This document shows, one piece after another, positions 2,068 to 31,803 of a stretch of 31,803 nt of DNA. This DNA comes from a virus, in the IMG/VR virus record IMGVR_UViG_3300025127_000135, positions 1-31,803 of that record; one strand, given 5' to 3'. Each line of letters starts with the position of its first letter. Position 1 is the stretch's first letter. Both the position numbers and the translations under genes were made by a program. The notes below the pieces were generated by a model, which had not been told where the DNA came from, ran no database searches, and worked only from the letters and a program-made list of their open reading frames with translations.

Positions 2068-2267
2068 GTCGCCTCCATGGGGTATACATCTCTTCTTTTG
2101 AGATTCCATTCATGACCATTAGCATAGACGCGATAAACGTACTGACTCTTTGTGCTCAAATAAACACCAACGGTTGGTCTTTCTGTTTCTCGTAATCTCA
2201 TTCCTTTATCAGTTTCGCACCACAACTCTACACCTTGTGGGATATGGATTAAATCACCCTGATTCAT
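2061..2267 (-). CDS. Small hypothetical beta-rich protein
   Basis: A 68-residue protein made mostly of short predicted beta strands, opening with a GDLIHIPQGVELW segment and containing RETERPTVGVYL and a W-L-K-R-R-D-V tail. The pattern suggests a small SH3-like barrel. The start ATG has TTAGGAG six bases upstream, inside the last codons of groEL, which it overlaps by 14 bases. Translation is therefore probably coupled to groEL. I cannot assign a function; given its place directly behind groEL, a chaperone-linked role is possible but only a guess. Confidence 0.65.
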   Translation of the reverse strand: MNQGDLIHIPQGVELWCETDKGMRLRETERPTVGVYLSTKSQYVYRVYANGHEWNLKRRDVYPMEATC

Positions 2268-11577: not shown

Positions 11578-12183
11578 TTACTTAAAGGTGATCTTAACCG
11601 ACGTATCTATTTTAAGGTCTGGCACGCGCAAATGATTAGCTAATTTATGCTTCTTGCACTCTTTTGCGTCCAAAAACCAATCGGCGTGTCCTTTATCGTG
11701 AACAATATCCAAGAAGTAATTTTCATCCTGCCCACAGTTCTCAGCCATCATGTGATAAATTTTCTGGTTTAATCGATCGGTCTCTTCGGCACTAACTTTA
11801 ACCTCTTCTACTTTACCCCAACTCATGGAGCTAACATCGTGAATCATTAGCGTTGCATCAGGATCGATGTATCTTTTGCCTTGCGCGCCGAAACTAAAAA
11901 GTATGGCTCCACAGGACATTGCTTTGCCTTGCACGATTGTAGCGACAGGAATGGTGGAATGCTGAATGTCTGAAATCATTGACATCAGACTATAAACTTG
12001 TCCGCCATAGCTATCAATAATAACTGGTACAACCGGCTGACCAGTGCTCTGTGCTTTAGACATTGATTCAGAGAAAGTCTTTGCTGCTGCTTCATCAAAT
12101 TTGTTAACCCTGATAATAACAGGGAGTTCATCTCTAAGCTTCGCCTCTTTTAATAGAGGACTAAATGTTTTAATTATATTCAT
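11578..12183 (-). CDS. clpP: ClpP-family serine protease (intact triad)
   Basis: A 201-residue ClpP-family protein, distinct from the one at 5235-5876. The triad is complete: Ser90 in GKAMSCG, His115 in LMIHDV and Asp168 in HADWFLD. The usual IDSYGGQVYS oxyanion loop (near residue 57) and the helix SAEETDRLNQKIY are present. It would degrade unfolded proteins only with an unfoldase partner such as host ClpX or ClpA, or act alone as a peptide-cleaving or maturation protease. No Clp ATPase is in the window. It is squeezed between dnaE (two-base gap) and the J-domain gene, so expression with replication genes is likely. Having two diverged ClpP genes is unusual for a phage. Confidence 0.93.
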   Translation of the reverse strand: MNIIKTFSPLLKEAKLRDELPVIIRVNKFDEAAAKTFSESMSKAQSTGQPVVPVIIDSYGGQVYSLMSMISDIQHSTIPVATIVQGKAMSCGAILFSFGAQGKRYIDPDATLMIHDVSSMSWGKVEEVKVSAEETDRLNQKIYHMMAENCGQDENYFLDIVHDKGHADWFLDAKECKKHKLANHLRVPDLKIDTSVKITFK

Positions 12184-12185
12184 GT

Positions 12186-15100
12186 TTATCCTAATAGTTT
12201 GAATGTTCTGCCGACTGCGTAAGTTGAGAAACCCCAGTTTTGATCATACTTCAGTCGAGCCATGTATGGTCGATTCAATCGAATCTTATCTTTTTGGGGC
12301 TTGATGCCCCAGCATCTAATTCTGGTAAGCTCATTATTGGAATCAATAACTTCCACGATCCAATATGTTTTACCTTTCTTAGTTTGTTTAATCGTGATCT
12401 TGCGTGGAATAAACCAGCACACTTGCAAATCCTCATCGAATTCAGAGATGGGGGGAATATACTTTTCGTGAAGCCGTTCGATAGTTTCATTACTGATCAC
12501 AAGGTTCATTGGGAAGATACCCGTCAGATCAGTTTTAAACTGAATTATCTCTTCTTCACTGAAGTCGCCTTCTGGTCGAAATGTCTCAATGTTCTCACTA
12601 AACTTCTTCAGATTTTTCGGCCGTTCGACGACACAAGCAGACCAGAAGTGCTTACGACCAGAGAAACGATCATCTACGATATTATCCAAAGCACCGCCCC
12701 TACAAAGCGCGTCAAGGGCTTTTTTATTCAGCTTGCTATATGATATGTCATCTCGAAACAAAAGGTCTTCAGCGTTCATAAACGGGCGATTCTCAAGCAC
12801 TTGTTCAATCGCTGCCATACCAAGACCTTTGATTGATGTTAGTGGTTGAATGAGAGTTTTCCCATCATCGCTAATCTCCCATACGGTTCCTGATTTATTA
12901 ACGTCTAGTGGTGCGATATCAAAACCAAATTTCTTGGCGATGTTAATTGCTTTTTCTTTGCGTGTCTCCGGTTCTTTGTCTAGAAAGGCTGCCATCCACT
13001 CTGCTGGATAGTAGTTGAACAGCCATGCACATTGAAAAGAGATTATAGAGTAAGAAACTGCATGTGACTTGTTAAAACCATACCCTGAGAAGAATTCAAA
13101 TTTATCCCAGAGGGATTGGGCTTCATCATGGCTAATGTTTTTGGCGACACAACCTTTAATAAATTTGTCATGCAGCATGCCTTTTACAGAACCCTTGCCT
13201 GTTCCTTTCTTGGTCAGCACCTTGCGAAGCATATTGCCCTCATCTAGCGTAAGTCCGCCAAGCTTATGAGCCAACAACGCAATTTGCTCTTGAAAGATTA
13301 GGAAACCAAATGTTTCTTCTGTAATATCTCTTGCTTCGTCAGAGAGATACTGAATCCTTTGTGGGTGCTCTTTGGCTTCCACATAGTCGTTATCAACACC
13401 TGCAGATAGTGGACCGGGACGGAAGATAGAGGTGATGGCAGACAAATCAATGATATTATTTGGCTTTACACGTTTACAAAAGCTTTGGGCACCATTTTCG
13501 GTAAACTGGAAGATACCAGCCCACTTACCCTTGTGGAAAATATTCTGATAAACTTCTGGATCGTTCAAGTCCACAACTTCTGGGTGTAGATTTTTTTCGT
13601 AGTATTCTCGCACATCTGAAAAGGTTGGCTCCTCAATACCATGATGGCGGCGCAAAATATGATATATCGCACCCTCCATCATTTTAAGTGTGGAGAGTCC
13701 AAGAAGATCGAACTTAATAAAGCCCATAGGCTCAAGGTGCCGGACGTTTTGCCCCTCTGCCCATGGAGCTTGACGAACACCGCCCGAATTGATCAGTGGC
13801 ATATTTTTATCAAGATTCTCCGCGATAACGACACCACCTGCATGGCGAGAACAAGAACGAACTTGACCAACAAGACCTTCGACGTGTGTCTTGACAGCAG
13901 GATATTTTGCCAAATATGTTTGAAGTGCTGGAGAAAATTCGATAACTTCTTCCCATGTTGGGTTATAGATTCCCGCTTTGATACCGTGCTTTTGTTTTGC
14001 TAGAGGAGTAGCTTCCCGTATCATGATTGATGTAACTGTATTGACTTCAGTGAATGGAATATTATAGAGCTTGGAAATATCCTTAATCAACGATTTAAGC
14101 TGTAGTGTATTCCAGTTAGAGATTGGCGCAACACAATCAGCACCCCACATTTCAACTAGCTTTTCTTTAAGCGTCATACTGTCAGATACATCATAATCAA
14201 TATCTGGATAGTCTGTGGCATCTGCTCTCAAGAATCGAGAAAAGAGTAGACCGTGCTTAATTGGATCAACCTGTGTGATATTCAGTGCATATGCCACCAG
14301 TGAGCCCGCCGCAGAGCCGCGGCCGGGTCCAGTAAGCATCATACTAGTAGCGACATCGACAATGGATTTCATTGTCAAGAAATATTTAGAGAAGCCACGG
14401 TCATCAATAACGTGTAGCTCTTTTCGCAAACGGTCAGTGTACTCTTTATTTGTATGTAAGCCTTTATCTTTTAGACCCTCAAGTGCATAATTTACCAGTG
14501 CCTGAGTGGCTGTAAATCCTGCCGGCACAACAAATTCAGGCAATCGCACTGTATTATCTGGCATGAACTTTTCAATTCTGTCAAAGGCAATGCGATATGT
14601 CTCTTCAATACTTTGCATAACCAAATCATCGTCATATTCAAAGCCCTGTTCGTCGGAGTATTGCTTGTAGCTCTCCCACATTTGATCACCATTCTTTGGA
14701 TATAGTTCATATCCAATCTCCTCAACGCCCTCTGGTAGTTCTGATTCCTCGTCAGCCCATGATGGGCGACCCTTACCAAGCCAACCAAGACGCTTGTAAA
14801 GCTCTCTGTCCTTCCAAGCGTCAGGGTTGGGGTAATGGCTGTCGGCTGTAGAAACCAGTCCAACGCCAAACTCTTTAGCAACTTGAATTACATATTTGTT
14901 AAGTTCATGTTGCTCTTTAATATTGTTCCACTGGATTTCGGCATACCAGCGATCACCGAAAATATCGACCATACATCGAGTTGTCTCTCGCATTGCTTCC
15001 AACACTGCCTCATCGCCATCCTCTCGGTTCTCCCAGTAGTTACCGGCATACACCCCACCAAGACAAGCAGAAGAAGCAATAATACCCTCGTTATACTTCT

Positions 15101-15617
15101 TGAGCAGTGCATAGTCGATTCGTGGGTAGCGATAGAAGTTCTCCGGCTGGTATGACTCGGATACCAACTTAAATAGATTGTTTAACCCGGTTTGATTCTG
15201 CGCGAGGAGAACAAGGTGACGGCGACGGCGGAGAATATCCTGAACCTGCTTGCTGTTTCCCTCATCCTCAACGGTAGCACCAGACTGTGCATCTTTCTTA
15301 ATGGCACGGGCGCGCTTCTTGTCAGCCATGGCTTGCTCGTAGGCGTCTCGCCATTCAGCAATAGACGGTGTAAAGTAAGCCTCGCAACCAAAGATGGGCT
15401 TGAATTCCTTACCAGCCTCTTGCATTTTCTTAGCATGCAAAACTTGATATGCCAAACCATTCATATTTCCATGATCTGTCAAAGCTAAGGCTTCACAACC
15501 ATTTTCATATGCAAAGTCCATATGTGCCTGTGGATATCCAATGGCGTCAAATATAGAGCCTGCGACACTGTGTGCGTGCAAGCCAACAAACTTAATCTTA
15601 GAATTCTTTCGATTCAT
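12186..15617 (-). CDS. dnaE: DNA polymerase III alpha subunit (DnaE type)
   Basis: A 1143-residue family C polymerase. The N-terminal PHP domain keeps a full set of metal ligands by eye: His14/His16, Asp24, His49, Glu79, His134, Cys185, and Asp259/His261 in TADSHY. It could therefore have intrinsic 3'-5' proofreading as in Thermus DnaE. The palm has GPGRGSAAGSL near 430, PDIDYD at 471-476 and the third acid Asp637 in KFDLLGLSTL. A fingers region (FSGYGFNKSHAVSY) follows, and the last 90 residues look like an OB fold. No separate DnaQ is seen. A promoter lies inside the upstream gene's end, and AGGAG precedes the ATG. A family A polymerase is also present at 30052-31254. Confidence 0.97.
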   Translation of the reverse strand: MNRKNSKIKFVGLHAHSVAGSIFDAIGYPQAHMDFAYENGCEALALTDHGNMNGLAYQVLHAKKMQEAGKEFKPIFGCEAYFTPSIAEWRDAYEQAMADKKRARAIKKDAQSGATVEDEGNSKQVQDILRRRRHLVLLAQNQTGLNNLFKLVSESYQPENFYRYPRIDYALLKKYNEGIIASSACLGGVYAGNYWENREDGDEAVLEAMRETTRCMVDIFGDRWYAEIQWNNIKEQHELNKYVIQVAKEFGVGLVSTADSHYPNPDAWKDRELYKRLGWLGKGRPSWADEESELPEGVEEIGYELYPKNGDQMWESYKQYSDEQGFEYDDDLVMQSIEETYRIAFDRIEKFMPDNTVRLPEFVVPAGFTATQALVNYALEGLKDKGLHTNKEYTDRLRKELHVIDDRGFSKYFLTMKSIVDVATSMMLTGPGRGSAAGSLVAYALNITQVDPIKHGLLFSRFLRADATDYPDIDYDVSDSMTLKEKLVEMWGADCVAPISNWNTLQLKSLIKDISKLYNIPFTEVNTVTSIMIREATPLAKQKHGIKAGIYNPTWEEVIEFSPALQTYLAKYPAVKTHVEGLVGQVRSCSRHAGGVVIAENLDKNMPLINSGGVRQAPWAEGQNVRHLEPMGFIKFDLLGLSTLKMMEGAIYHILRRHHGIEEPTFSDVREYYEKNLHPEVVDLNDPEVYQNIFHKGKWAGIFQFTENGAQSFCKRVKPNNIIDLSAITSIFRPGPLSAGVDNDYVEAKEHPQRIQYLSDEARDITEETFGFLIFQEQIALLAHKLGGLTLDEGNMLRKVLTKKGTGKGSVKGMLHDKFIKGCVAKNISHDEAQSLWDKFEFFSGYGFNKSHAVSYSIISFQCAWLFNYYPAEWMAAFLDKEPETRKEKAINIAKKFGFDIAPLDVNKSGTVWEISDDGKTLIQPLTSIKGLGMAAIEQVLENRPFMNAEDLLFRDDISYSKLNKKALDALCRGGALDNIVDDRFSGRKHFWSACVVERPKNLKKFSENIETFRPEGDFSEEEIIQFKTDLTGIFPMNLVISNETIERLHEKYIPPISEFDEDLQVCWFIPRKITIKQTKKGKTYWIVEVIDSNNELTRIRCWGIKPQKDKIRLNRPYMARLKYDQNWGFSTYAVGRTFKLLG

Positions 15618-19116: not shown

Positions 19117-21084
19117 TTAAATTTCACAAGTATCGTTACTACAAAATTTAGTGCCTACTCCGCCTTTATCGTCTTCAATTTTGATAATTGGCTGTACTTT
19201 TTTGCTCATCTCTTCATACTTTTCTTTAGTAATAGATTCGTAGGGTGCTTGTTCATATCCAGTTTCTTCATACTTAAGAAATGATACTGCTTTTAATCTA
19301 GTTTCATACATCTCTAAGGCGTTAAGAATCTGATCTGATTCAGAGTCTTTAAACGAGATCGTAACAGACACGGCGTTATCTGCCCAATAATTCTGATACT
19401 GGGCTGCAATTTCAAGTTGTTCCCACATAGAAACATCTCGCTTTCCTTTTGTAAAGTATGGCTCCTTGACAGGAAACTCGACAACAGAAGTATTCGGAGA
19501 GTATTTATCATCTTCAATATTATAACCTGCTTTTTCTAATGTTTTAAGAATTTGTGATGACTTAGAAAATCTGATACGGCGAATGTAGTATTCATCCTCT
19601 GGGAAATGGATGCCGGGGGTAGAGCCATTCAGCAACGAAACGGTACCGGAAGGCTTAATCGATGTCATCTTAATCGATTTAGGAACACATAACCAGTTAG
19701 AGTATTCTCTGTCAAGTTCATTAATCTGTGTATACGCATTGTCACACCACTCAAGCATTTCGCGGCGTCCATGCTTATTAAAAGCTTGCACGATGCCAGA
19801 TTGTGACAACCCAATGCGACGGTTTTTAAGCATCTTAGCGTTTGTTTCTGGCCAGTGTGTATTAACAAGAGTAACGGTCTTGCCATACAAATAAGCGCAC
19901 TTTAATGTTTTAAGATAGTCTTCATAATCATCATGTTTAGCAGGAAACGTTTCTACTAGACAACACATCTCAGCGTTATGTAAGCTTTGCTCCACACAAG
20001 GATTAAATCCCATGACCTCGATATCGTCATAATTTTCACCATCTTTCATTCTTCCGTATGCTCTCGCATTTTCAAGCCAGATATAACCGGGCTCGCCATT
20101 AGTTTGCGATTGCTTAGCATGCCAACTGTAGTCCATGCCGACTTCAGCATCAAATGAATTGTTAGACCCCCAACGGTGGTGATAAAGCTTTTCTTGATCA
20201 TTCTTCATCTCAAGATACCTAAAGTCACTAGAATCTCCAATCGCCAACGCAGCAGAACGCCTTACATTACCAGCGACCACGCAACGACCAATTAGATTTT
20301 CAACATCAACAATATCAACCGATGTAATTTGTTCACCAATTTTATCTGAAAAAAGTTCTTTCAAGTTATCATGTAGCTCAATTAATGGTCCGGCTCCAGA
20401 CGAGGTGCCGCCGAATCCAAGAATTGGGGCTCCTTCAGGTCTGATTGCTGAATAATCAAACTTTGGTACTTTTCCTCCGAGAAAAAAGCCGTCAAGCAGC
20501 AAGTGTACCGAATCAACCCAACCCTCGCGCGAGTCATCAATAAGCAGCGTATCATTAGTGTACACTGGCTCTTTAATGTTAAGGGTACCGGCGCCCTTAG
20601 TATCAAATCCGACACCAACACCAACCATCAACGCATCCATAATCCAAGCAAAAATGTAGCCACCTTTACTGGATAGATCTTGTGTGGAACGGAAAGCACA
20701 ATTGAATAAAGCAGCGCCGGTTCTTTCCTCAACAAATTTGGTACCCATCATCCAAAGACCACGGCCGGGAGGTGTCCACTTCAAGTTAAACAAACGATCA
20801 AAAGCATCTTTCGCAGTTTTCTGTGCCTTATTATCATTCCACTCTAATCCAAGACGAACAACATGTTCTTTTTGAATATGGAACATACCCTCGATGACAC
20901 GACGGCATGTTTGCCACCATTCTTCTGTGCCAGTAGCGTTAGGATCGAATTCGCTCAACCTTCTAGCATAAGTGCGCTTGAAGGTAACATACCCAAGCGG
21001 ACCCCATGGTACTTCGGCTGTTGTGTAAGGCTCAATAAACGAGTCAGATAATCTGAACTTGCGGATGTTTTCAATAGTTTTCAT
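19117..21084 (-). CDS. nrdJ: Class II (adenosylcobalamin) ribonucleotide reductase, monomeric
   Basis: A 655-residue enzyme converting ribonucleoside triphosphates to dNTPs with adenosylcobalamin, resembling the monomeric Lactobacillus leichmannii type (739 residues). Catalytic residues are in register: Cys129 in FNCAFR, Cys363 and Glu365 in NPCVEQ, and Cys374, matching C119, C408, E410 and C419 with the same 11-residue gap. The C-terminal shuttle pair is Cys648/Cys653 in FCSNDTCEI, same spacing as C731/C736. The enzyme works with or without oxygen but needs B12 from the host. Reduction may come from the thioredoxin-like protein at 8629-9003. It overlaps dnaB by ATGA, tying dNTP supply to replication. 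Confidence 0.96.
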   Translation of the reverse strand: MKTIENIRKFRLSDSFIEPYTTAEVPWGPLGYVTFKRTYARRLSEFDPNATGTEEWWQTCRRVIEGMFHIQKEHVVRLGLEWNDNKAQKTAKDAFDRLFNLKWTPPGRGLWMMGTKFVEERTGAALFNCAFRSTQDLSSKGGYIFAWIMDALMVGVGVGFDTKGAGTLNIKEPVYTNDTLLIDDSREGWVDSVHLLLDGFFLGGKVPKFDYSAIRPEGAPILGFGGTSSGAGPLIELHDNLKELFSDKIGEQITSVDIVDVENLIGRCVVAGNVRRSAALAIGDSSDFRYLEMKNDQEKLYHHRWGSNNSFDAEVGMDYSWHAKQSQTNGEPGYIWLENARAYGRMKDGENYDDIEVMGFNPCVEQSLHNAEMCCLVETFPAKHDDYEDYLKTLKCAYLYGKTVTLVNTHWPETNAKMLKNRRIGLSQSGIVQAFNKHGRREMLEWCDNAYTQINELDREYSNWLCVPKSIKMTSIKPSGTVSLLNGSTPGIHFPEDEYYIRRIRFSKSSQILKTLEKAGYNIEDDKYSPNTSVVEFPVKEPYFTKGKRDVSMWEQLEIAAQYQNYWADNAVSVTISFKDSESDQILNALEMYETRLKAVSFLKYEETGYEQAPYESITKEKYEEMSKKVQPIIKIEDDKGGVGTKFCSNDTCEI

Positions 21085-22457
21085 TTTGTTTTGTTCCTTC
21101 TAAATTTTTGATACTTTGAATGTAAATGCTCTTTCTGCATTTTTGGTGTTAACTGCACAGGTGACGTAACCACGCCATTATTTATAATTTGTGTTTTAGG
21201 TAAAACTCTAATATTGACATTTGACGTATCCATAAATATGTCATAGACCATGCCATCGGGACCATTTCTGTTTTTTGCGATGAATATTTTACCTTTATTA
21301 TTTTGCTTATCTTCGATTGTTCGTGAGACGGAGAAGATGAAATCAGCCACGAAACATTTATTAAAAGCTTCAGAAATTTGCTCCATTGTGATCACCTCAG
21401 CATTCAAACCTGATCGGTTGGTTTGTGAAGCAGTCCAGATTGGACAATTGTATTCTGTGGATATCGCGCGAAGTTCTTCGTATATTGATTCAAGCTCATT
21501 TCTTTTTTCTTTTCTAATGACCATCGGACGCAACAAATCAGCATAATCAACTATGATCATACCGGGCTCAATTCCCCTTTTGATTAGTTTATTGAGATGG
21601 TTCTTTATTGTACCAGTTGTTGCTGATTTTGTAGGATATTCTTTAACAATTAAGTGTCCTTCTAAGTCTTTAATTTGTTCGTATACATCATCTTTAAAAG
21701 ACGTTAACTCTGAAAGTGGATAACTTGTAATGCAGCTATCATATCGCTTACCAATAACAGTTTCTTGAAGCTCTAAAGTGTAATGGATGACAGTTTTGCC
21801 CTCTTTAATTGCTTGTGCCCCAAGATGCACCAAAACCATAGATTTACCAGCGCCGGTGGGCGCTACAACAACTCCCAGTTCAGATTTGCCAAGACCGCTA
21901 CCACAAATGTCATCGATCTCTTTCCAACCAGTAGTAACTGGGTTTCTAAACTTAGGCAAGTATCTTTCTTCAAAGTCAGCAAGGTAGTCATAGCCAAAAT
22001 TATTTTCAGAACCAAGCTTCAGGGAGTCGTTGATAATTTTGGAGATTTCATCAAACGAACAAGATTGCAGAAGGTCAACTGATTTGAGCATCGCTTCCTT
22101 AAGATTTTGCTTTCTACAAAAATCTAGTGACTGCTCTTTGATATATTCAGAACCCTCAACTTCAGTAGACGAGACCTTACTAAAATATTCCTTAATTTGC
22201 TCAGATACTACTTTATCTTCTTTAGATAATTCTGTGTTCAGTATAGAGTCAACAATAGTATGCGATGGATGTTTAGAATATTTTTGACGGTATTCAACGA
22301 TCTTGTTTGTGAACAAACGCAAATATTCAAGCTCCAAAAAGTTAACATCCAATACTTCTAAAATCTGGTCCGCAAACGGACGATCATTAAGTATTAGATG
22401 CACCAAATCTTCTTGGAAACTTTTTCCATAATTGCTGAAAGATGGCTTAGTTGACAA
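21081..22457 (-). CDS. dnaB: Replicative DNA helicase, DnaB family
   Basis: A 458-residue hexameric 5'-3' helicase that unwinds DNA at the fork. The N-terminal 150 residues are helical (DnaB-N type). The RecA-like motor starts near residue 165 with TGWKEIDDICGSGL and has Walker A APTGAGKS at 199-206, Walker B MIIVDYADLLRP and the WTASQTNRSG sensor segment. T4 gp41 is the functional parallel. The start is a TTG six bases after GAGG; no ATG is available nearby. It has its own promoter at 22475-22502 and leads the dnaB-nrdJ-groES group. No helicase loader is recognised in the window. Confidence 0.95.
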   Translation of the reverse strand: MSTKPSFSNYGKSFQEDLVHLILNDRPFADQILEVLDVNFLELEYLRLFTNKIVEYRQKYSKHPSHTIVDSILNTELSKEDKVVSEQIKEYFSKVSSTEVEGSEYIKEQSLDFCRKQNLKEAMLKSVDLLQSCSFDEISKIINDSLKLGSENNFGYDYLADFEERYLPKFRNPVTTGWKEIDDICGSGLGKSELGVVVAPTGAGKSMVLVHLGAQAIKEGKTVIHYTLELQETVIGKRYDSCITSYPLSELTSFKDDVYEQIKDLEGHLIVKEYPTKSATTGTIKNHLNKLIKRGIEPGMIIVDYADLLRPMVIRKEKRNELESIYEELRAISTEYNCPIWTASQTNRSGLNAEVITMEQISEAFNKCFVADFIFSVSRTIEDKQNNKGKIFIAKNRNGPDGMVYDIFMDTSNVNIRVLPKTQIINNGVVTSPVQLTPKMQKEHLHSKYQKFRRNKTK

Positions 22458-22504
22458 ATTAACCTCGTGGTTGTATTATAAATTGTTTCGTGAAATTGTC
22501 AACT
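22449..22504. repeat. 9-bp inverted repeat linking the dnaB -35 box and start codon
   Basis: On the minus strand AGTTGACAA (22504-22496), containing the -35 box, is the exact reverse complement of TTGTCAACT (22457-22449), which contains the TTG start codon. The arms are 38 bases apart. Only transcripts reading through from the exonuclease gene would contain both arms. Confidence 0.5.
22475..22502 (-). promoter_or_regulatory. Consensus sigma70 promoter for dnaB
   Basis: A perfect TTGACA (22502-22497), a 16-bp spacer and a perfect TATAAT (22480-22475), beginning on the base after the TAG stop of the exonuclease gene. It would drive dnaB, nrdJ and the GroES-like gene. Confidence 0.88.
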
Positions 22505-23471
22505 AGCAATTTAATAAAATTCTATTTAGATTTGCTCTCAAATCTTCCCAGTTTAATTCACCAAAACCATCCTCTCTCATTAGAGATAAAATTTCTGTTT
22601 TGTTGAAGGTACACTGGAAGTTTTCAATCGATTCAGAGATAAACTGCTTTGATTGAAATGATAACAACGGTGCGTACAGTTGCATCATTTTATAATTATG
22701 AGAAATAACTTCTTTTCCCTCGATGATATTCGTAAAAAATTTCAATTTACTATCTGCTTTTTCACAAAAATCTACTAACTCATTGATAGTGTAGTCTTTT
22801 TCCGATGCAAGAAAAGATAATCTTTTTTTGACTGAAATCAAACCCGCACCTTTGATACCGATCAGGTTATCTGAAGCATCACCAACTATGGCTCGTGCGA
22901 GTGCCATGTTGTTTGGGTGGACTCCATATTCTTCAATAACTCGGTTTTTATTTACGAGTTGATTACTGGTTGGTCGATATACAACTGTCGAATCATTACA
23001 CAATTGCAAGAAGTCTTTATCATTTGAAATAATAACTTTTTGCCAACCATCATACTTTTCTAGTTTTGTAACTTGTGAAATAACATCATCAGCTTCGACC
23101 TCTGGAATAATAATTTGTATAATCGGCATTTCATTAAAATAAGACATCACTCTAGTTTGTTGCCATATTTTATTATGAACCACTTCGTTATCTGTGAGAT
23201 TATGTACGGCTCTGTTCAGGCGTAACGGCTTACGACCTTCTTTGTAGTTCTTATCAATGCTTTTTCTTTTCAATGAGCCATTGGGTCCATCCCAAACCAT
23301 CACGATTTCGTCTGGCTCAGTCATGCGAACCAGCTTTTGTAAGATCTTGATAGTTCCTTTAATACCTCCAATTGGCTGACCATTTGTAGATAAAGATGGA
23401 TCAACAATATAGGCACGGATGAACATGTTGAGGGCATCAATAACAATAACCCTTTTTTTCTGCTCTGACAT
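22503..23471 (-). CDS. 5'-3' exonuclease / flap endonuclease (T4 RNase H-like)
   Basis: A 322-residue structure-specific nuclease of the PIN/FEN superfamily. Acidic metal ligands are in the usual places: VIVIDALNMF near the N-terminus, VWDGPNG, EVEADDVISQV, IISNDKDFLQL, and the helix-hairpin-helix entry VGDASDNLIGIKGAG. It would remove RNA primers and flaps on the lagging strand, complementing the family A polymerase of this phage, which lacks any exonuclease domain. A longer frame reaches 23513, but the ATG at 23471 has GGAGG seven bases upstream and begins the conserved region. That SD lies in one arm of the hairpin at 23472-23510, so translation may be controlled by transcript origin. Confidence 0.92.
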   Translation of the reverse strand: MSEQKKRVIVIDALNMFIRAYIVDPSLSTNGQPIGGIKGTIKILQKLVRMTEPDEIVMVWDGPNGSLKRKSIDKNYKEGRKPLRLNRAVHNLTDNEVVHNKIWQQTRVMSYFNEMPIIQIIIPEVEADDVISQVTKLEKYDGWQKVIISNDKDFLQLCNDSTVVYRPTSNQLVNKNRVIEEYGVHPNNMALARAIVGDASDNLIGIKGAGLISVKKRLSFLASEKDYTINELVDFCEKADSKLKFFTNIIEGKEVISHNYKMMQLYAPLLSFQSKQFISESIENFQCTFNKTEILSLMREDGFGELNWEDLRANLNRILLNC

Positions 23472-23510
23472 AAAAAACCTCCGACAGTCATAGAATAACT
23501 CATCGGAGGT
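23472..23510 (-). terminator. Hairpin masking the exonuclease SD, with T-run (terminator-like)
   Basis: ACCTCCGA (23510-23503) pairs perfectly with TCGGAGGT (23484-23477) over an 18-base loop and is followed by six T (23477-23472 region) and the ATG. In RNA reading through from recA this would hide the GGAGG ribosome binding site and could also terminate transcription. The promoter at 23492-23520 starts RNA after the first arm, leaving the SD free. Confidence 0.7.
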
Positions 23511-23520
23511 CAATAGTCAA
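23492..23520 (-). promoter_or_regulatory. Sigma70-like promoter overlapping the hairpin
   Basis: TTGACT (23520-23515), a 17-bp spacer and TATTCT (23497-23492). The -10 has two mismatches, so it is weaker than its neighbours. The predicted start, near 23485, lies between the hairpin arms. It follows the recA stop by eight bases. Confidence 0.65.
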
Positions 23521-23528
23521 GTAATATT

Positions 23529-24677
23529 TTACTCTTTTATTGGAACTGATATGTCCTCTGGATCTTCGTAGTACGTGCTAGCATCCCCTTGGCGTTTATC
23601 AAACTTCTGCACGATTTCTTCGTCCATGATACTGATAACTCTGCTTTTAAATTCTTCATCAGACATTACAAGTTCAGTCCACTTTGAAGGCTGAAACTTT
23701 TTAACATATCCGTCAGGCATTGACAGTGTATACCACGCACCAGCGGATGATAGATGTTCGGAGCCCTTAATGGCATCAAACCAAGATTCCTCATCTCGAA
23801 TACCAACATCATCGGTGCCCCACATGATGCGGAATGCACAGGAGCGACCTTGAGTACCAAAGCGGGACTTTTCAAGTTTTACTTTAACTTCAGAGCCAAT
23901 ACGGAAACCTCGTTCGTCTTCGATGAATGCGGACTTTGCTTTACGGCCGGTGAGCCAAATCCGAAGCGAGTATGCATAATGCATCGCTTTACCACCGGGA
24001 GTGATATAGGGCGTTGTCATTGCAATTTGTCTAGCTAGCGGACCCTGCGGGATATTGGTTTTAAGCTGGTTAAGGACGATAAACGTTGCCTTCTTGTCCG
24101 CAATAGGAATAACAAGCTTTGACATACCCTTAGCAAGAATACGAGCCTTGACTGCCATTGATGATTGTGGGTTGAAGTCACCTTGAACATCAGAGATTGA
24201 TGGCGTAAATGCTAGTGAGTCCCAGATAAAAACCATCTGTTCATCAGTTGCACCAAGTAACTCTTCGATAGTCTCAAGCACAAACTCGACAGAGGATGCT
24301 TGAACGTACATTAATCGCTCTAGATCGCATCCTGCTCGCTCCAAGAACATTGGGTCGATAGCAGACTCAGAATCGAAATAAACGACCATCTTACCCGCTT
24401 TCTGGGCGTTTGCGGCAATCTGTGTTGCCATGTATGATTTACCAGTTGCTTCAAGACCTGCAATCTCTGTAATCTTACCCACTGGAATACCAGCGATTTG
24501 ACCCTTAGCAATGATAGAGTCTAGCCAGCGTGAGCCGGTTGGAATCCATTCTTTGACAGACGTAGGGTTATCGCCCGTAAGATCGTGAGCAACGTTTTGA
24601 CCTGCTTTTTTATTTACAAGTTTCATAAGGTCTTGTAAATTTACACGCCCGGCCTTGGCGGTAGTTTTCTTAGGCAT
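23529..24677 (-). CDS. recA: RecA/UvsX-family recombinase
   Basis: A 382-residue strand-exchange ATPase that forms filaments on single-stranded DNA for recombination-dependent replication and repair. The motor has Walker A GLEATGKS at residues 74-81, a YFDSESA segment with the catalytic Glu, Walker B MVFIWDSLAF and the VLNQLKTN segment that leads to the DNA-binding L2 loop. Length is close to T4 UvsX (391) and longer than most bacterial RecA. The C-terminus is acidic. It is in its own short transcription unit behind a promoter at 24702-24730; GGAGGG precedes the ATG. Neighbouring SSB, helicase and exonuclease genes fit a T4-like replication-recombination module. Confidence 0.95.
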   Translation of the reverse strand: MPKKTTAKAGRVNLQDLMKLVNKKAGQNVAHDLTGDNPTSVKEWIPTGSRWLDSIIAKGQIAGIPVGKITEIAGLEATGKSYMATQIAANAQKAGKMVVYFDSESAIDPMFLERAGCDLERLMYVQASSVEFVLETIEELLGATDEQMVFIWDSLAFTPSISDVQGDFNPQSSMAVKARILAKGMSKLVIPIADKKATFIVLNQLKTNIPQGPLARQIAMTTPYITPGGKAMHYAYSLRIWLTGRKAKSAFIEDERGFRIGSEVKVKLEKSRFGTQGRSCAFRIMWGTDDVGIRDEESWFDAIKGSEHLSSAGAWYTLSMPDGYVKKFQPSKWTELVMSDEEFKSRVISIMDEEIVQKFDKRQGDASTYYEDPEDISVPIKE

Positions 24678-24737: not shown

Positions 24738-25880
24738 TTACACACCAGCTAATTTATATAACGCTGGACCTGTTTCAAGATAGTTTCTCATTAGAACACC
24801 ATACTTTTTAGTCCCACCAGACTTTCCTGAAGCTCTTTCTACTTTTGCTCTCATTTGCACAAGAACGCTTTTATTTCCTGCAGCATCCTCGTAAATAATT
24901 TGAATTTTTGGATAAGAACCAGAAGTATTAATAATAGGATATAAATTTGCTTTTTCCATCTCAGTGTAAAACTTTTTACCGAATCTAGCTCTTTTGAAAC
25001 CGCCGGGTAAAATTTTCACCAACTCAATAAACTCAGACTCTGGTCCAACAGCACCAGTTTTAATGTAATCAGCCAACAATTTAACAAACTCAGCTTCAAA
25101 TCTATCATTCTGTAGCTTAGACTCTAAAACTTTATATGCTTGCTGGTATATTAAGCTTGTTGCATCAGAAGCCAGCTTTAAAAAGCCTCCGGCATCAATC
25201 TCATCACGAGAGGAAAATGGCTTACCATCTGGTATATTGCTAACAATTCTATTGTACACCTGCTCGGCACTTGACACATCAATACCAAGAGGCTCCCAAA
25301 AAGCTTTTTGAACATCAAAAGCTTTTCCGGTTTTTTGTGCAAATTGTTCGCCACCTTTTACTTTTAGTGATAATTGATTCCTTAATTTATTGCCGTCTAC
25401 AATTATTGATATATCAACCTTTGTACCCTTTTGATCCTCTGTGCCAGCCGCTTTTACTAATATATCATTTGATTTTCTATTTGACGCAAGTCTTGTTGCA
25501 AACTTGTGCATCGGGGGGCTATTTACGTAGCTAACCGCACCTTCATATTCGCCCTGTAAGCAAGTTAAAATATTTCTATCAAGTAGAGCCTCAAACGGAC
25601 GCTTGGGCATTGAAATAGAAAAACTAACTTTGTCCTCATATTCACTACTAAAGTCAGGAACAACATTGCTAACTACAGCGTTCATTTGTTTAATATTGGC
25701 AACTTGAGCTATAACATCGGATGCATCGACCATTCCTATTTTTCCATCTATTCTCTTAGAAAGTTTAGCAGCGATAGCAGCAGCAACAATACCTTCAGCA
25801 ATATCTCCTCGGTTTGGGAGCTTACATTTTTGTTCCATTAGATAAAAGTCCCAACTTTCGATTATCTTTTTCATACTCAT
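24738..25880 (-). CDS. Hypothetical protein, possible PD-(D/E)XK-like nuclease core
   Basis: A 380-residue protein without a recognised name. A possible nuclease-fold core runs from a helix with GDIAEGIVAAAIAAK (Glu29) through GTKVDISIIVDG (Asp146) to NQLSLKVKGGEQF (Lys163). The order Glu, Asp, then SLK on a strand is that of divergent restriction-endonuclease folds, followed here by a Gln/Phe pair often seen after such a lysine. The C-terminus is basic (KVERASGKSGGTKK). It is coupled by TAATG to the D12 methyltransferase and DUF262 genes, which makes a modification or anti-host-DNA function attractive but unproven. Compare the 3896-5224 protein, which shows a similar pattern. Confidence 0.65.
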   Translation of the reverse strand: MSMKKIIESWDFYLMEQKCKLPNRGDIAEGIVAAAIAAKLSKRIDGKIGMVDASDVIAQVANIKQMNAVVSNVVPDFSSEYEDKVSFSISMPKRPFEALLDRNILTCLQGEYEGAVSYVNSPPMHKFATRLASNRKSNDILVKAAGTEDQKGTKVDISIIVDGNKLRNQLSLKVKGGEQFAQKTGKAFDVQKAFWEPLGIDVSSAEQVYNRIVSNIPDGKPFSSRDEIDAGGFLKLASDATSLIYQQAYKVLESKLQNDRFEAEFVKLLADYIKTGAVGPESEFIELVKILPGGFKRARFGKKFYTEMEKANLYPIINTSGSYPKIQIIYEDAAGNKSVLVQMRAKVERASGKSGGTKKYGVLMRNYLETGPALYKLAGV

Positions 25881-26677
25881 TACCCTTTAATTAGTATCTC
25901 AGATGACTGTTTGCTCTTATTCATGCCATAGGTCCATTCAGCTTCAATTATTTCGTAGTCGTCATACATTTCTCTGATAGTCTTGCAATCGTTGTAAGAC
26001 ATCAGCCAGCCAGTGCGGTTGGTCAGTAATCCATGTAGTCTCTCATGATCAAACGAACTGTGAAGATTACCATCGATACCATATAGAGAGTTCTGTGACC
26101 CATTAAGCATGTATGGCGGATCAAGGTACAAAAAAGCCTTTGGATGATAATTGATTGCATCTTCAAAATCAGCGTAATCTACTCTAAAGTTTTTGGCTTT
26201 AAAGTCTCGCAAGCGCTTAACAGAGGAGTCAGTAAAGCGTGCATATGACGCGCGTTCCGACCATCCACCACTAAACGTAGCACCAGAAAAACTAGCGCGA
26301 TTAATGGCATAGTATTTCGCTGCTCTCTCGTAAGAAAACATGAATGAATCTGTCTTGAGGTCTTCGCGATACTGGTGAAAGGAGTCTTTACTACAGCCTG
26401 TCACTTTCTCACCACTGCGGGTATCATATTCCTCTCGCAGCTTTTGCACCTCATCGGCCAATTGATTATTATCGCCGCACAGCGCCATCCAAAACCACAC
26501 AAGCTGTTTCATCTTGTCATAACCAAACACTTGAGTTCCACGATTTGCCAAAGCAAGCTCAATAGAACCACCCCCGAAGAATGGCGAACACACTCGTTCG
26601 ACACCTTCGGGGATGTGAGGTAAGATATGCTTAACGGCGCGTGATTTACCGCCGGGATATCTCAAAGGCGTTTTCAC
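25880..26677 (-). CDS. D12-class DNA adenine N6-methyltransferase
   Basis: A 265-residue alpha-type (D12/Dam superfamily) methyltransferase with all core motifs: TPLRYPGGKSR at residues 3-13, the S-adenosylmethionine loop FFGGG at 33-37, RAAKYYAINR and the catalytic DPPY at 186-189. It would methylate adenine N6 in a short site, often to protect phage DNA from host enzymes. The target cannot be predicted. It overlaps the DUF262-type gene by ATGA and the next gene by TAATG, so the three are made together. A catalytically dead-looking relative lies at 716-1489, and an unrelated phage-type Dam at 9630-10103. Confidence 0.95.
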   Translation of the reverse strand: MKTPLRYPGGKSRAVKHILPHIPEGVERVCSPFFGGGSIELALANRGTQVFGYDKMKQLVWFWMALCGDNNQLADEVQKLREEYDTRSGEKVTGCSKDSFHQYREDLKTDSFMFSYERAAKYYAINRASFSGATFSGGWSERASYARFTDSSVKRLRDFKAKNFRVDYADFEDAINYHPKAFLYLDPPYMLNGSQNSLYGIDGNLHSSFDHERLHGLLTNRTGWLMSYNDCKTIREMYDDYEIIEAEWTYGMNKSKQSSEILIKG

Positions 26678-27936
26678 TTACTAGCCAGCGCAACTGGTGC
26701 ATTGATAGATGTGAATTTTCCGCTACTAATAGCTTTTTTCACTTCTGCTATTAACGTATCTTTTCGGGTGTCGCGACGGGTTGGATTAACCATGCGGCGA
26801 CACTGGTACCAGTAGTAATCACTATCTGGAGCCATGGCACTGATGTCAGCATCATCCAAGTGTGGATTATTAGCTCTGGCTAACTTCAAGTCACTTGATT
26901 GGTCATGCTTTGAATCGTTAACCAAGCGAGCATCAATAGAATGCACATCTCGATAAAACTGATCATAGCTATGAATCACGTATTTGCCATTACAATCATA
27001 GAAATACTCAGCAACAAACAACATAGCCCAAAAAGTTCTCTGCGGGATGGTCTTAGAGGCAGGGACTGCCTGCTGTTGCTCTACAGTGTTCTTAATGGTC
27101 TCCATGATAGAGATAAATTTGCGCTGTTCAGCATCATCATATTCAGGAACTTTAGACATCGCTCGGTTTTCACCAATTTGATAAAACCAATCCATATCTG
27201 CATCTCGAAAAAAGCGCGACTTTGTGTGTTCATTAATTGACATAAACGCTTGAGTAAACCACTCAATATCTCTCATACGCAATATTGATTGCTCTGAGCA
27301 GCCACTGAATCTTGACCAGATGTTAGAAAAAGTGCCCTCGCAATACTTTCGGATCCAACTAGAAATATCAGTTTGATATGATTGTCGATTTTCAGTTCTA
27401 TTAAGAGGATCGCCAGCATTTAAATCACGAAAAATCGATGGCAACTCTTTAAATGGTGCGTTTTTAACAGTAACAATAATCACGGTGCTGTGCAAAAACG
27501 CTTGTTGAAAGCTCACTGGTAGCTTTTCAAACTTTATGTTAGTAAACTGTTGGGGGTGATAGTTCAAATCATAAAGCGTTCCGGTGAATGTAGTTTCATT
27601 ATTAACAAAACCCATTAGACCTTTACGTAAACGATTTTGACCATCTTCGTTGACAGTCAGCTTACCTTCACTTTTTAGTTTTCGGTATCTCTCGGCACCT
27701 CTGATATCACTGTGAGCGTCAGAGGCTTCAATACCGCTTTCAATATCAGCAACAATGATACCCGAAACGGCGGTACCCTTACTAACTGATTCAATGTATT
27801 TATTGGCAGTGTCACGTTGCCAAACTACTCGTCTTTGGAAATCTTTAACGATTGCCATTTTTTTATCGTTGTAATCACTTACAACATCTTGTACAGACAC
27901 GTTTTGTGCTGTTTTAGTAATTTTTCTAATTGTCAT
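26674..27936 (-). CDS. DUF262-type (ParB/GmrS-N-like) protein
   Basis: A 420-residue protein with features of DUF262, the ParB/sulfiredoxin-like domain of GmrSD-type modification-dependent nucleases. FQRRVVWQ at residues 33-40 matches the usual fxRxxVW, EDGQNR at 97-102 matches DGQQR, and FRDLNAGDPLNRTE matches the FxxLNxxGxPLs segment. DUF262 proteins use NTP and can be nucleases or DNA-interacting regulators. No C-terminal HNH (DUF1524) pair is visible, so it is not a whole GmrSD system. It starts a three-gene group with the D12 methylase; AAAGGAG precedes the ATG. I see no clear promoter in the gap upstream, so it may be read from the SSB unit. Confidence 0.85.
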   Translation of the reverse strand: MTIRKITKTAQNVSVQDVVSDYNDKKMAIVKDFQRRVVWQRDTANKYIESVSKGTAVSGIIVADIESGIEASDAHSDIRGAERYRKLKSEGKLTVNEDGQNRLRKGLMGFVNNETTFTGTLYDLNYHPQQFTNIKFEKLPVSFQQAFLHSTVIIVTVKNAPFKELPSIFRDLNAGDPLNRTENRQSYQTDISSWIRKYCEGTFSNIWSRFSGCSEQSILRMRDIEWFTQAFMSINEHTKSRFFRDADMDWFYQIGENRAMSKVPEYDDAEQRKFISIMETIKNTVEQQQAVPASKTIPQRTFWAMLFVAEYFYDCNGKYVIHSYDQFYRDVHSIDARLVNDSKHDQSSDLKLARANNPHLDDADISAMAPDSDYYWYQCRRMVNPTRRDTRKDTLIAEVKKAISSGKFTSINAPVALASK

Positions 27937-28362: not shown

Positions 28363-29136
28363 CTATTTATTTGCCATTAGTTCATCAAATGCAGCATCAA
28401 CTGGGTTGACTGAAGCGTCAGTGTTGTATTTGCTGGACTCGTTGGAACGAGACTCAGCACTTGCATCACCGGATAATTGCTCGTCAAGGATCGCATCGAT
28501 TTCTTCGGGACTAAGGCGCTCAAACAATGACTCAATATCGGGCATGCTGTCTAGGAGGGCAGGGATTGCCTCAGTGTCTTCCAGCAATGGCGACGAACTT
28601 CTACGCATTTTCAAGTTTGTTTGTGGATAAGCTCCGGGTGACGTTGGCTTTGTATAAGTCAACGCAATATCGGTGCCAGAGTGTGTATCGGTAATGTCAC
28701 CGTACTCTGGGTCTAAAATGTAGCCAAGAAGGTTTTCGTATGCTCGCTTACCATATCCGTAAACCTTAATACCTTCTCCTTCGTGACCACGCCAAATAAC
28801 GGGAGAGAAGTAGCGTGCTCGCACGAATAGTGACTTTGCAAGCTTCTTGCTTTCCTCATCATTGGTCTCACTTCCTTCTCTCCAAAGAGAGGAAGCAAAA
28901 TCGCAAATTGGACATCGTTCACCAAAGTTTCGCTTTGGGCACATGATGCCGCGCTTGTGTTCACCTACATTATAATGAAAGTAAACTTCTTTAAGTGGAT
29001 CGCCATCAGGTGTTGGAACAATCCTGATATCTTGCTCTCCTTCTTGTGGCTTAAACCAAACAGAATCCTGTTTGTCCCCGCCTTCGCCGCGCAAAGAAGC
29101 AAGCTTCTTACGCATAAGTTCCATGTTAATTGACAT
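28363..29136 (-). CDS. Single-stranded DNA-binding protein, T4 gp32-like
   Basis: A 257-residue protein with the plan of T4 gp32: a basic N-terminal arm (MRKKLASLR), a core with a zinc site His60-Cys66-Cys75-Cys78 (the CPIC motif), an aromatic-rich OB-fold segment (FVRARYFSPVIW, YGYGKRAYENLLGYI), and a long acidic, Ser-rich C-terminal tail ending in DAAFDELMANK. It would coat single-stranded DNA at forks and recruit polymerase, helicase and recombinase through the tail. A promoter lies at 29186-29214, with a CTGTG-N5-CACAG dyad in the leader, and AGGAG precedes the ATG. In T4 the SSB regulates its own mRNA; the leader hairpin here could serve similarly, which is inference. Confidence 0.9.
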   Translation of the reverse strand: MSINMELMRKKLASLRGEGGDKQDSVWFKPQEGEQDIRIVPTPDGDPLKEVYFHYNVGEHKRGIMCPKRNFGERCPICDFASSLWREGSETNDEESKKLAKSLFVRARYFSPVIWRGHEGEGIKVYGYGKRAYENLLGYILDPEYGDITDTHSGTDIALTYTKPTSPGAYPQTNLKMRRSSSPLLEDTEAIPALLDSMPDIESLFERLSPEEIDAILDEQLSGDASAESRSNESSKYNTDASVNPVDAAFDELMANK

Positions 29137-29185: not shown

Positions 29186-29214
29186 AATGTATCACCCTTG
29201 TTCTAGCTTGTCAA
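29186..29214 (-). promoter_or_regulatory. Sigma70-like promoter for the SSB gene
   Basis: TTGACA (29214-29209), a 17-bp spacer and TACATT (29191-29186). The -35 lies in the last codons of the FtsZ-like gene and the -10 directly follows its TGA. CCCTTG-N11-CAAGGG brackets the -35 as an inverted repeat. The leader contains a further dyad CTGTG-N5-CACAG. Confidence 0.75.
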
Positions 29215-30055
29215 GGGTATTTTGTTGTTGTATTGCGTTAGTGTGGGCAACGCAGAACCCAAAGTCATTTAAGTGTGTGCCCCATATACCATAAGAAATT
29301 TTCTTATAAGCATTGCGGGGCTTGTCTTTTAAAATGCTTACAAGTTTACGGTGTAAACCAACTTCTTTCTCCAGTTTTTCTTCATTAATACAAATATAAT
29401 AATATGTTTCACGAGTCATGTCAAGTGGAAAAAACCATTTTTCTTTCAAAGTTTTTGAATCCAGCATACCGATGCTTTTAATACGATTTATTTTAGACGG
29501 CCGGGACATAATACCAATTTCTGGTTCTGTGTGATTGAAAAAGTTCATATAATGCATGCACGAGAAAATTGTTTCATTTATTTTATCATAATAATTCTTA
29601 ATTGATAAGTCTTGTATACCTTTTTCTAGCTCAAGATTAGAAATAATAGTAAGTGACTGAAAAAGACCAGAACGCGCATATTCCTGTAATACACCAAACA
29701 TCATGTTTTCTAATAGCTTAGGAACACCGGTGAGCAGTTCAATATCTGGTTTGACATAGAACACATTAATATTTTTTTCTTTAATCTGCTCAAGAATACC
29801 GAGTGCGTAGTTGGAGCTTAGAGAAGCACCAACAATGATAACTTGAACGTCATCGGTGATGTCACTAAAAAACTTTTTAAGATCAGGAATATTGTTTTCA
29901 TAATCCTCTGGATTTTCAAAACGCTCAAGCTTACGTGTAAACTTAGTGTTTTTACAATCGGAACTAAGTTGATAAATCTTATAATTGTTTTTCTGAGTTT
30001 TAAAGTTCTCGGCAATTTTCGACGCGGCGTTGCCAATTCCAACAATAGAGATCAT
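29192..30055 (-). CDS. FtsZ/tubulin-superfamily-like protein
   Basis: A 287-residue protein that tracks the FtsZ/tubulin fold from end to end. It starts with a Rossmann strand-loop ISIVGIGNAASKIAENF, has VQVIIVGASLSSNYALGILE at 71-90 where FtsZ has the GGGTGTG loop, then NVFYVKP (FtsZ AVVTKP), SLTIISN (SLITIPN) near 125, a long helix, and a second domain with YYYICINEEKLEKEV and GIWGTHLNDFGFCVAHTNA like the end of the FtsZ core (FGAVID...VTVIATGF). The phosphate loop is degenerate (GASLSSN), so GTP turnover may be altered or lost. It could organise phage DNA or the host cell, as TubZ and PhuZ do, or block division. It overlaps the polymerase gene by ATGA. Confidence 0.7.
   Translation of the reverse strand: MISIVGIGNAASKIAENFKTQKNNYKIYQLSSDCKNTKFTRKLERFENPEDYENNIPDLKKFFSDITDDVQVIIVGASLSSNYALGILEQIKEKNINVFYVKPDIELLTGVPKLLENMMFGVLQEYARSGLFQSLTIISNLELEKGIQDLSIKNYYDKINETIFSCMHYMNFFNHTEPEIGIMSRPSKINRIKSIGMLDSKTLKEKWFFPLDMTRETYYYICINEEKLEKEVGLHRKLVSILKDKPRNAYKKISYGIWGTHLNDFGFCVAHTNAIQQQNTLDKLEQG
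29396..29424 (-). promoter_or_regulatory. Possible internal promoter in the FtsZ-like gene
   Basis: TTGACA (29424-29419), a 17-bp spacer and TATTAT (29401-29396) on the minus strand, inside coding sequence about 260 bases before the SSB start. It fits the promoter pattern of the window but may be chance in AT-rich DNA. Confidence 0.3.
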
Positions 30056-31254
30056 AAATTTAAAACTCCAATGTCATAGTAGTCCTTACCAGCGCGCAAG
30101 TTTGTTTTAAATTCTGCAAGGGAGTTTTGGGAAAATATTTTTTTGATTTCAGGAATCAAGTATCTCTCACTATTTGGCATATCCAGCACCACTTCATCGT
30201 GAACAATGTGCGAAATAAATGTTTTTTTATCGCTCAAAAACTTGTCCAGCGCCACTGCGCGTTCATTGACAAGATCTGCTGTAGTGCTCTGTATTAAATA
30301 GTTTACTGACTTATAATCGTTCACAAATATTTCACGTCCAAATGGTGTGCAAACATATCCATTATGGTAGTATCGCTCATTTAGAAGTTCGCGATTATAT
30401 ATCGTATTTTCGATCTTTTTTGACTCTGGGTTGTAAAGCCAAGAAAAGAAGAATGTCTTAGCTTTTTCGCGGTCAATGATACCCTTTTTCTTTAGAATAT
30501 TTTGAATGTTCCAATTGTGAACATCACCAAGTGGCTGTTCAACATCTAATAAAGCCAACACAGTGCGAACTTCGGCGCCGTTATAATCAAGTGAGATAAA
30601 CCAATCATTATGAGGCTTGATCAACGCTCGGGTTTCTTTTCTCATTGTTAAAATTGGAAACGATTTAAAGTATGTTGACAATCGACCAGTGCGGGTGCCG
30701 AAAATATTATAATCAATTCTCTTGCTACTCTTAAGAATTTTTTGTACTTCACCTCTAGACATAGAACTCATAAAAAGCCCTCTGCAGTTATCGTTGTTTA
30801 TGTTTAAGTTTTGATATCGAATTTTATACAAAAGCTTTTCAACGCTAACAAGATGGTCATAATATTCTTGCTTGTCAAAAATATCGAACACATGTTTAGT
30901 AATACCATTTTTGATTTCTAAAAACTCACACAAAAAATCATGAGGCACAAGGTCAAAAAAACAATGATTATTAAAATTAATCTTAGCAAGCTCAAAAGAC
31001 TTTTTGAAAGCGTGCATTTTTCTATTTACTTTCTTGAACGATTCTTCAAGTTCTTTAGGACACATGCGCTCAAGTGAAGCGCCTTCGGAAAGAATCCAGC
31101 CGTAATCAATTGAATCATCATTTAGAAAACCTGAGTATCGCCACGTCTTTGAATCTTTAAAAGATTCTGGAAACTTTGATTCATCAAATATAAGATTTCC
31201 ATCATGGTAAATTCCAACACATGTTTTTTTATCATCTAATGCCTGAAAATACAC
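30052..31254 (-). CDS. Family A DNA polymerase, polymerase domain only
   Basis: A 400-residue PolA-type polymerase. Motif A is SLDYNGAEVR with Asp223 and Glu228 (DYSQIELR in E. coli). The O-helix keeps Arg262, Lys266, Phe270 and Tyr274, equal to R754, K758, F762 and Y766. Motif C is VHDE at 351-354. The 5' nuclease and 3' exonuclease domains are absent, and the N-terminal 130 residues do not match them. Gap filling or primer replacement next to the DnaE-type polymerase is a likely role, with the exonuclease at 22503-23471 as partner, but it could also be the main replicase. The GTG start overlaps the upstream TAG as TAGTG, with GAGG upstream. Phe270 predicts poor use of dideoxynucleotides. 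Confidence 0.93.
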   Translation of the reverse strand: MYFQALDDKKTCVGIYHDGNLIFDESKFPESFKDSKTWRYSGFLNDDSIDYGWILSEGASLERMCPKELEESFKKVNRKMHAFKKSFELAKINFNNHCFFDLVPHDFLCEFLEIKNGITKHVFDIFDKQEYYDHLVSVEKLLYKIRYQNLNINNDNCRGLFMSSMSRGEVQKILKSSKRIDYNIFGTRTGRLSTYFKSFPILTMRKETRALIKPHNDWFISLDYNGAEVRTVLALLDVEQPLGDVHNWNIQNILKKKGIIDREKAKTFFFSWLYNPESKKIENTIYNRELLNERYYHNGYVCTPFGREIFVNDYKSVNYLIQSTTADLVNERAVALDKFLSDKKTFISHIVHDEVVLDMPNSERYLIPEIKKIFSQNSLAEFKTNLRAGKDYYDIGVLNL

Positions 31255-31803
31255 TAAAGCCTCAAGTTCTTTTGTCTTTGCGTAATATAACTTAATGAGC
31301 CCGAATAGTCAAATGTCTTATTAAGGATACTTTCAAATATATCAATTGCAGCAGGTAAATTAATTTTTGCTATCCCCACAGATTCAGTAATAAGGCTATT
31401 TTTTTCATATTCACTAAATTGGCTCTCTTCTTCCATGAATCTTATTTTAGCATATAATTCAAAAAAATACAAATCACCAAATTGAGTTTGAAAATTTTCA
31501 AAAGTGTATGATATTGTTTTTTCGATTGTTATCTTATCGCCATCATTAAGATTTTCTGTAAGCGTCACAACTTTTGGCTTTTTTGATTCGTTGTAAATAT
31601 TATAAAGAAAGAATTTAAAATTTTGAAAGTATTTAGCGCCCACGGGTTCATAAGATAAATTTAAGAATGCGTCAGTGGTGCCAATACCATTATTAAACAA
31701 TCTCATATTCTGCGTCATTACGGCAGAACCTATATCAGCAACCAATCTTTGTGGATTATTAGCATCAACCATAAATCCATAAGTGTTACATGCATTTAAG
31801 TAA
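31254..31803 (-). CDS. Hypothetical protein, 5' end outside the window
   Basis: The frame is open to the right edge: ten further codons upstream of the first ATG (31772) read through without a stop, and their translation (YLNACNTYGF) continues naturally into MVDANNPQRLVADIG. The visible part is therefore probably the C-terminal 182 or so residues of a longer protein. It is a mixed alpha/beta sequence with an aromatic-rich segment (KYFQNFKFFLYNIY) and no motif I can assign. A virion structural role is possible given short segments like those in T4-like phage proteins, but this is a weak impression. Its 3' end holds the promoter and the ribosome binding site of the polymerase gene. Confidence 0.7.
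   Translation of the reverse strand, partial: YLNACNTYGFMVDANNPQRLVADIGSAVMTQNMRLFNNGIGTTDAFLNLSYEPVGAKYFQNFKFFLYNIYNESKKPKVVTLTENLNDGDKITIEKTISYTFENFQTQFGDLYFFELYAKIRFMEEESQFSEYEKNSLITESVGIAKINLPAAIDIFESILNKTFDYSGSLSYITQRQKNLRL
31284..31312 (-). promoter_or_regulatory. Sigma70-like promoter for the family A polymerase
   Basis: TTGACT (31312-31307), a 17-bp spacer and TATATT (31289-31284), one mismatch each, in the 3' end of the upstream gene and 30 bases before the polymerase GTG. It would drive the polymerase and the FtsZ-like gene. Confidence 0.75.

Follow-up and report, generated by a model that had tools for sequence, protein, structure and literature searches.

A predicted tubulin-fold protein without the canonical GTP loop is encoded in step with a DNA polymerase in uncultured ocean phages

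The tubB gene and its replication operon

The window analyzed here is the whole 31,803-nucleotide stretch of viral DNA (IMG/VR record IMGVR_UViG_3300025127_000135, positions 1 to 31,803). The initial annotation placed an open reading frame at 29192-30055, which our analysis reproduced exactly, on the minus strand. We call this gene tubB and its product TubB. The gene lies among phage replication genes, directly after a short DNA polymerase gene (polA).

31254-31772, minus strand: conserved 172-aa gene upstream of polA, seen in related loci
30052-31254, minus strand: polA, mini family-A DNA polymerase, 400 aa (PF00476, E 1.9e-12; phrog_17, E 2.6e-19)
30052-30055, minus strand: 4-nt overlap (ATGA) between the stop codon of polA and the start codon of tubB, the same in 155 of 155 loci
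29192-30055, minus strand: tubB, tubulin/FtsZ-fold protein (by prediction) without canonical GTP loop, 287 aa, ATG start
29810-29830, minus strand: TubB residues 76-82, GASLSSN, at the T4 (G-box) position; family consensus G[SA]SxSSNY
29513-29536, minus strand: TubB residues 174-181, NHTEPEIG, at the T7 position, from the model and the family alignment
28363-29136, minus strand: gp32-like single-strand DNA binding protein (PF08804, E 1.7e-14)
23529-24677, minus strand: UvsX/RecA-like recombinase
22503-23513, minus strand: 5'-3' exonuclease
21081-22457, minus strand: DnaB-like replicative helicase
19117-21084, minus strand: class II (B12-dependent) ribonucleotide reductase (RNR)
12186-15617, minus strand: DnaE-type DNA polymerase III alpha, a second polymerase

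The fetched loci share the gene order 172-aa gene, polA, tubB, gp32, variable genes, UvsX, exonuclease, DnaB and class II RNR. The polA-tubB junction is -4 nt in every one of the 155 loci, while a -4 junction is found before polA in 44 of 131 and after tubB in 21 of 155, and polA-tubB is the sole invariant junction among those measured. The early proposal that tubB is translated in step with a family A polymerase is thus supported, and the 4-nt overlap extends to the whole set of loci. Because a full DnaE-type polymerase III alpha is encoded in the window too, the mini-PolA probably serves as an accessory second polymerase. The phage accordingly carries two DNA polymerases, and the 400-aa family-A one has no obvious exonuclease domain.

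tubB is a real gene under purifying selection, with pN/pS of 0.22-0.27 against six relatives (synonymous sites near saturation). The relatives aligned from fetched loci comprise 117 distinct, full-length sequences, all intact, with a lowest pairwise identity of 52%. Searching IMG/VR with the window protein gave at least 583 confirmed stretches, and a second, divergent query gave 482. A tblastn search of 50,697 phage records gave no match to TubB, and the second tubulin described below (TubA) was likewise unmatched in these records. Searching genome_contigs, in which 84,980 bacterial and archaeal species are represented by one genome each, also revealed neither protein. The lineage carrying TubB is a common, uncultured ocean phage group. 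For the C-terminal tail TLDKLEQ, a partner-binding function was entertained and then dropped because the large 279-aa subgroup of TubB lacks the tail.

Predicted fold and nucleotide-site loops of TubB

According to structure prediction, TubB almost certainly has the two-domain FtsZ/tubulin fold. The AlphaFold2 model shows a mean pLDDT of 88.4 and a pTM of 0.87 (85.9-88.4 across the five models), and it meets the definition of the tubulin/FtsZ superfamily by fold, namely an N-terminal nucleotide-binding domain, the central helix H7 and a C-terminal domain, arranged as in tubulin. A Foldseek search of the PDB returned 654 matches at E <= 0.001, and the best 50 of these 654 were all FtsZ, with the top match at E 7.2e-13, probability 1.00 and TM 0.70 over the whole protein. 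In VIA comparisons, 265-282 residues covering both domains were aligned, with Z scores of 23.6 for CetZ, 22.3 for TubZ, 21.6 for FtsZ and 21.6 for tubulin. Since these gaps are too small, the nearest family cannot be named. Against a viral structure library, the top matches came from an uncultured Caudovirales phage (an FtsZ-like GTPase) and from a Myoviridae assembly (a 'cell division protein'), and a protein of Vibrio phage 2 TSL-2019 ranked fifth. The initial annotation had held that FtsZ or TubZ as the top structural match would support its assignment, which is what we obtained, and that an unrelated Rossmann enzyme without the tubulin second domain would refute it, which was not seen.

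At the sequence level, searches of Pfam, PHROGs and PDB profiles with TubB gave nothing significant and no tubulin family, no tubulin PHROG was among its PHROG matches, and hhalign found no significant link between TubB and TubA. PF00091 matched neither the window TubB, nor ten aligned members, nor the records with tubB and without tubA. We place TubB, by its predicted fold, in the superfamily and not in the PF00091 GTPase family. The missing sequence match to any tubulin family, the modest alignment under the model (45 family sequences, Neff 2.1) and the best Pfam hint, a Rossmann NAD domain at E 0.04, would all suit a modeling artefact concealing an unrelated Rossmann enzyme. However, all five models are confident, both domains align with Z above 20, and the many PDB matches are headed by FtsZ alone, so that we regard an artefact as scarcely credible. 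TubB escapes both Pfam and PHROGs, so further proteins of this kind may come to light when searches are based on structure.

The order of elements in TubB follows that of FtsZ, as the initial annotation had suggested: GIGNAAS, GASLSSN, KPD and SN follow strands 1, 4, 5 and 6, respectively, and VAHTN lies in the last strand, with secondary-structure positions that match the model. The degenerate GTP loop that it had noted, GASLSSN in place of GGGTGTG, is a feature of the whole family. GGGTG[ST]G occurs in none of the 117 members, whereas G[SAGT][SAT]xSS[NIS]Y occurs in 116. Since the substitute loop is kept across the family, the T4 loop is rewired rather than decaying. Among the 117 sequences, G76, S80, S81, Y83, P103, D104, K153, Y155 and N160 are invariant or nearly so, and N140 is conserved in 96%. 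N140, the aromatic residue 156 and N160 fall where we take tubulins to hold guanine, a position inferred without superposition. At the T7 position, residue 177 is acidic (Glu or Asp) in 99%, residue 179 is Glu in 85% and G181 is invariant. The spacing of these acidic residues differs from that of tubulin T7, and no helix H8 follows in the model, where residues 176-191 are mostly coil. As a group, the nucleotide-site loops show no extra constraint relative to the rest of the protein (p = 0.42). From these features we infer that TubB is very probably not a canonical GTPase, although hydrolysis has not been assayed. It possibly binds a nucleotide or another ligand.

TubB shares its predicted two-domain fold with FtsZ, the bacterial and archaeal division GTPase, but differs in its 8-14% identity, in the absence of GGGTG[ST]G and, in the model, of H8, and in its place in a phage replication operon. 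TubZ and PhuZ are likewise phage- or plasmid-encoded proteins of the tubulin fold (VIA Z 22 between TubB and TubZ); TubB, however, matches none of them by sequence and has no G-box, and its gene adjoins polA. The phages with TubB are, moreover, T4-like and not phiKZ-like. FtsZl-1 and FtsZl-2 are divergent cellular members of the FtsZ-tubulin superfamily that were found through their kept GTP loop (Makarova and Koonin 2010, PMC2875224). TubB is divergent as they are, but it is viral and has no GTP loop.

A second tubulin, TubA, and the phage lineage

Among the tubB records retrieved initially, the three longest (189,712, 135,976 and 92,524 bp) each encode one PF00091 protein above the cut-off, which we call TubA. 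This second tubulin lies outside the window and was thus invisible to the first, sequence-only reading. TubA has 379-383 aa with an N-terminal extension of ~65 residues, and its loop G156-S164, GGGGGTGSS, is invariant. Its PF00091 matches above the cut-off (E 6e-9 and 2e-10) together with the intact G-box identify TubA, by sequence, as a member of the tubulin/FtsZ GTPase family. A phmmer comparison with FtsZ structures gave E 3e-12, and a weak match to the PhuZ PHROG was also found. The TubA model was poor (pLDDT 48), and a fold search was therefore not made, so that the identity of TubA depends on its sequence. At least 171 IMG/VR loci encode TubA.

Among 22 records selected by TubA, tubB is present in 8, and each of the remaining 14 stops 5-33 kb downstream of tubA. 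Where both genes occur (11 records), tubA lies upstream of tubB on the same strand at a spacing of 38-44 kb. Since the 14 records without tubB stop short of this spacing, all 11 testable records (11/11) encode both genes. In one 195-kb record the spacing is visible only across the record ends, consistent with circular permutation of a genome of ~195 kb. The window is too short to contain tubA, and the presence of TubA in the window's own phage is therefore inferred. In the 190-kb record (G001), tubA lies at 94545-95696, which corresponds to L166:14545-15693; the gene was also located in L184 and L185. In G001 and a second record, G002, the gene directly before tubA encodes an SbcCD-like nuclease fusion. 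A strict link between these two genes was considered and rejected, as it is not conserved.

The 190-kb record encodes a terminase as well as portal and tail-sheath proteins. The terminase has its closest relatives in Immutovirus and Microcystis phage Mel-JY01, two phage groups with T4-like capsid modules, followed by the T4-like cyanophages; among cultured phages, the nearest one found is that of Flavobacterium phage immuto (46.8% identity). The lineage is that of a T4-like myovirus of ~190-196 kb without a close cultured relative. In immuto, Mel-JY01 and an uncultured 484-kb record, the nearest by terminase, no tubulin was found above the cut-off and TubB had no match, the latter being weak evidence since the same search had no positive control. 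The immuto operon has the same order as that of the window lineage (polA, gp32, recombinase, exonuclease, DnaB, RNR), but its polA-gp32 slot holds two unrelated small genes where the marine lineage has tubB. TubB was therefore either gained by the marine lineage or lost elsewhere. Inspection by eye indicates that the immuto mini-PolA (MW353175.1, 1-1326) has YDA at motif C where the window polymerase has HDE, and its activity may differ.

Possible roles of TubB

The initial annotation had proposed a role in replication or in perturbing host FtsZ. The former fits the operon context, and the latter found no support, although it is not excluded. We infer, with some confidence, that TubB acts in phage DNA replication or its spatial organization. 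The likeliest single reading, which we hold to be slightly short of probable, is that TubB is a non-hydrolyzing pseudo-tubulin that works together with filaments of TubA and with the replication machinery of the phage. TubB itself would not hydrolyze GTP and would serve as a pseudo-subunit of TubA filaments, as a cap, a nucleator or an alternating partner. Produced alongside mini-PolA on this reading, it would let phage replication forks or new genomes be attached to, or positioned by, TubA filaments. That TubB works directly with TubA is only a tentative inference. More tentative still is the full two-component system, a replisome-anchored phage cytoskeleton in which an active GTPase, TubA, would be capped, nucleated or alternated with by the degenerate TubB and tied to replication via the coupled mini-PolA. 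Alpha/beta tubulin and BtubA/BtubB likewise place two tubulin-fold proteins in one genome, one of them possibly non-hydrolyzing. TubA and TubB differ from these pairs in their extreme divergence, in the 38-44 kb between their genes and in that contact is unproven.

Several observations weigh against a partnership with TubA. There is no physical or functional evidence that TubB contacts TubA or PolA, tubA and tubB lie in separate modules, and the two may occur together simply because they belong to the genome of a single phage lineage. Since the TubB model has no H8, which is part of the normal filament interface, incorporation into filaments may be impaired. The lack of extra conservation in the nucleotide-site loops also counts against it.

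An alternative is TubB as a monomeric accessory subunit of mini-PolA, in which the tubulin fold is re-used as a scaffold or regulator without filaments. The invariant -4 nt coupling is with polA only, a helper subunit is plausible for a polymerase that is short (400 aa) and second beside DnaE, and the loss of the G-box and H8 also speaks for it. However, immuto has mini-PolA and the same operon without TubB, so this polymerase type does not require it, and the constant presence of an intact-loop tubulin in the same phages would be a coincidence. We therefore consider the accessory subunit unlikely, yet worth retaining. A TubB that binds nucleotide via its Ser-rich loop and forms filaments of its own, with unusual or no hydrolysis, seems to us improbable to a greater degree. 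The invariant G76, S80 and S81 at the phosphate loop (S80 and S81 being small hydroxyl residues), the residues at the inferred guanine-holding positions and the nearly constant acidic residue 177 speak for it, but no family member has GGGTG[ST]G and the model is without H8. Least plausible of the functional alternatives is that TubB inhibits host FtsZ, capping its filaments and halting division. FtsZ is the nearest fold to TubB in Foldseek, and other phages are generally known to block FtsZ through small proteins. One such case, T7 Gp0.4 and FtsZ, is treated in PMC13423816. Against this, a replication operon in which tubB is locked to polA is an odd site for a gene of host takeover, a tubulin encoded by the phage itself is a nearer target, and the phage host is unknown.

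For the pseudo-tubulin reading, PhuZ offers a point of comparison, since catalytically dead PhuZ forms stable filaments and phage DNA is then mis-positioned (PMC4244570). An unidentified organizing factor has been postulated for PhuZ in the same work (PMC4244570), and by analogy TubB would be a candidate, in another lineage, for a factor of this kind. The phage tubulins in the literature that we found appear to be single, active GTPases, mainly of jumbo phages. Our literature searches, confined to open-licence papers, found no account of a phage protein with the tubulin fold whose gene is coupled to that of a DNA polymerase, nor of a pair of active and degenerate tubulins in one phage. The presence of a second, intact-loop tubulin in the same phages as TubB is new and suggests a previously unrecognized two-tubulin system linked to virus DNA replication. 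On this reading, the locking of TubB to a polymerase gene, together with TubA, would form a novel link between phage replication and a cytoskeleton, and tubulin pseudo-subunits would have evolved in viruses.

Other genes of the window were also noted. A phage chaperonin (Cpn60/GroEL; PF00118, E 6e-67) is encoded at 2254-3849; in jumbo phages, tubulin is reported to occur together with HSP60 chaperones (PMC7824862). Two purine genes were identified, one for IMP dehydrogenase/GMP reductase at 7616-8632 of the window and one for adenylosuccinate synthetase (327 aa) in the 190-kb relative (G001:158769-159752). Between gp32 and UvsX, a protein with a weak GmrSD-N (DUF262-like) match (26674-27936) adjoins a D12-class adenine DNA methyltransferase (25880-26677). 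This pair is present in only some related loci and is possibly a mobile modification or anti-phage cassette. Two separate genes of the Clp-protease family lie at 5235-5909 and 11578-12183.
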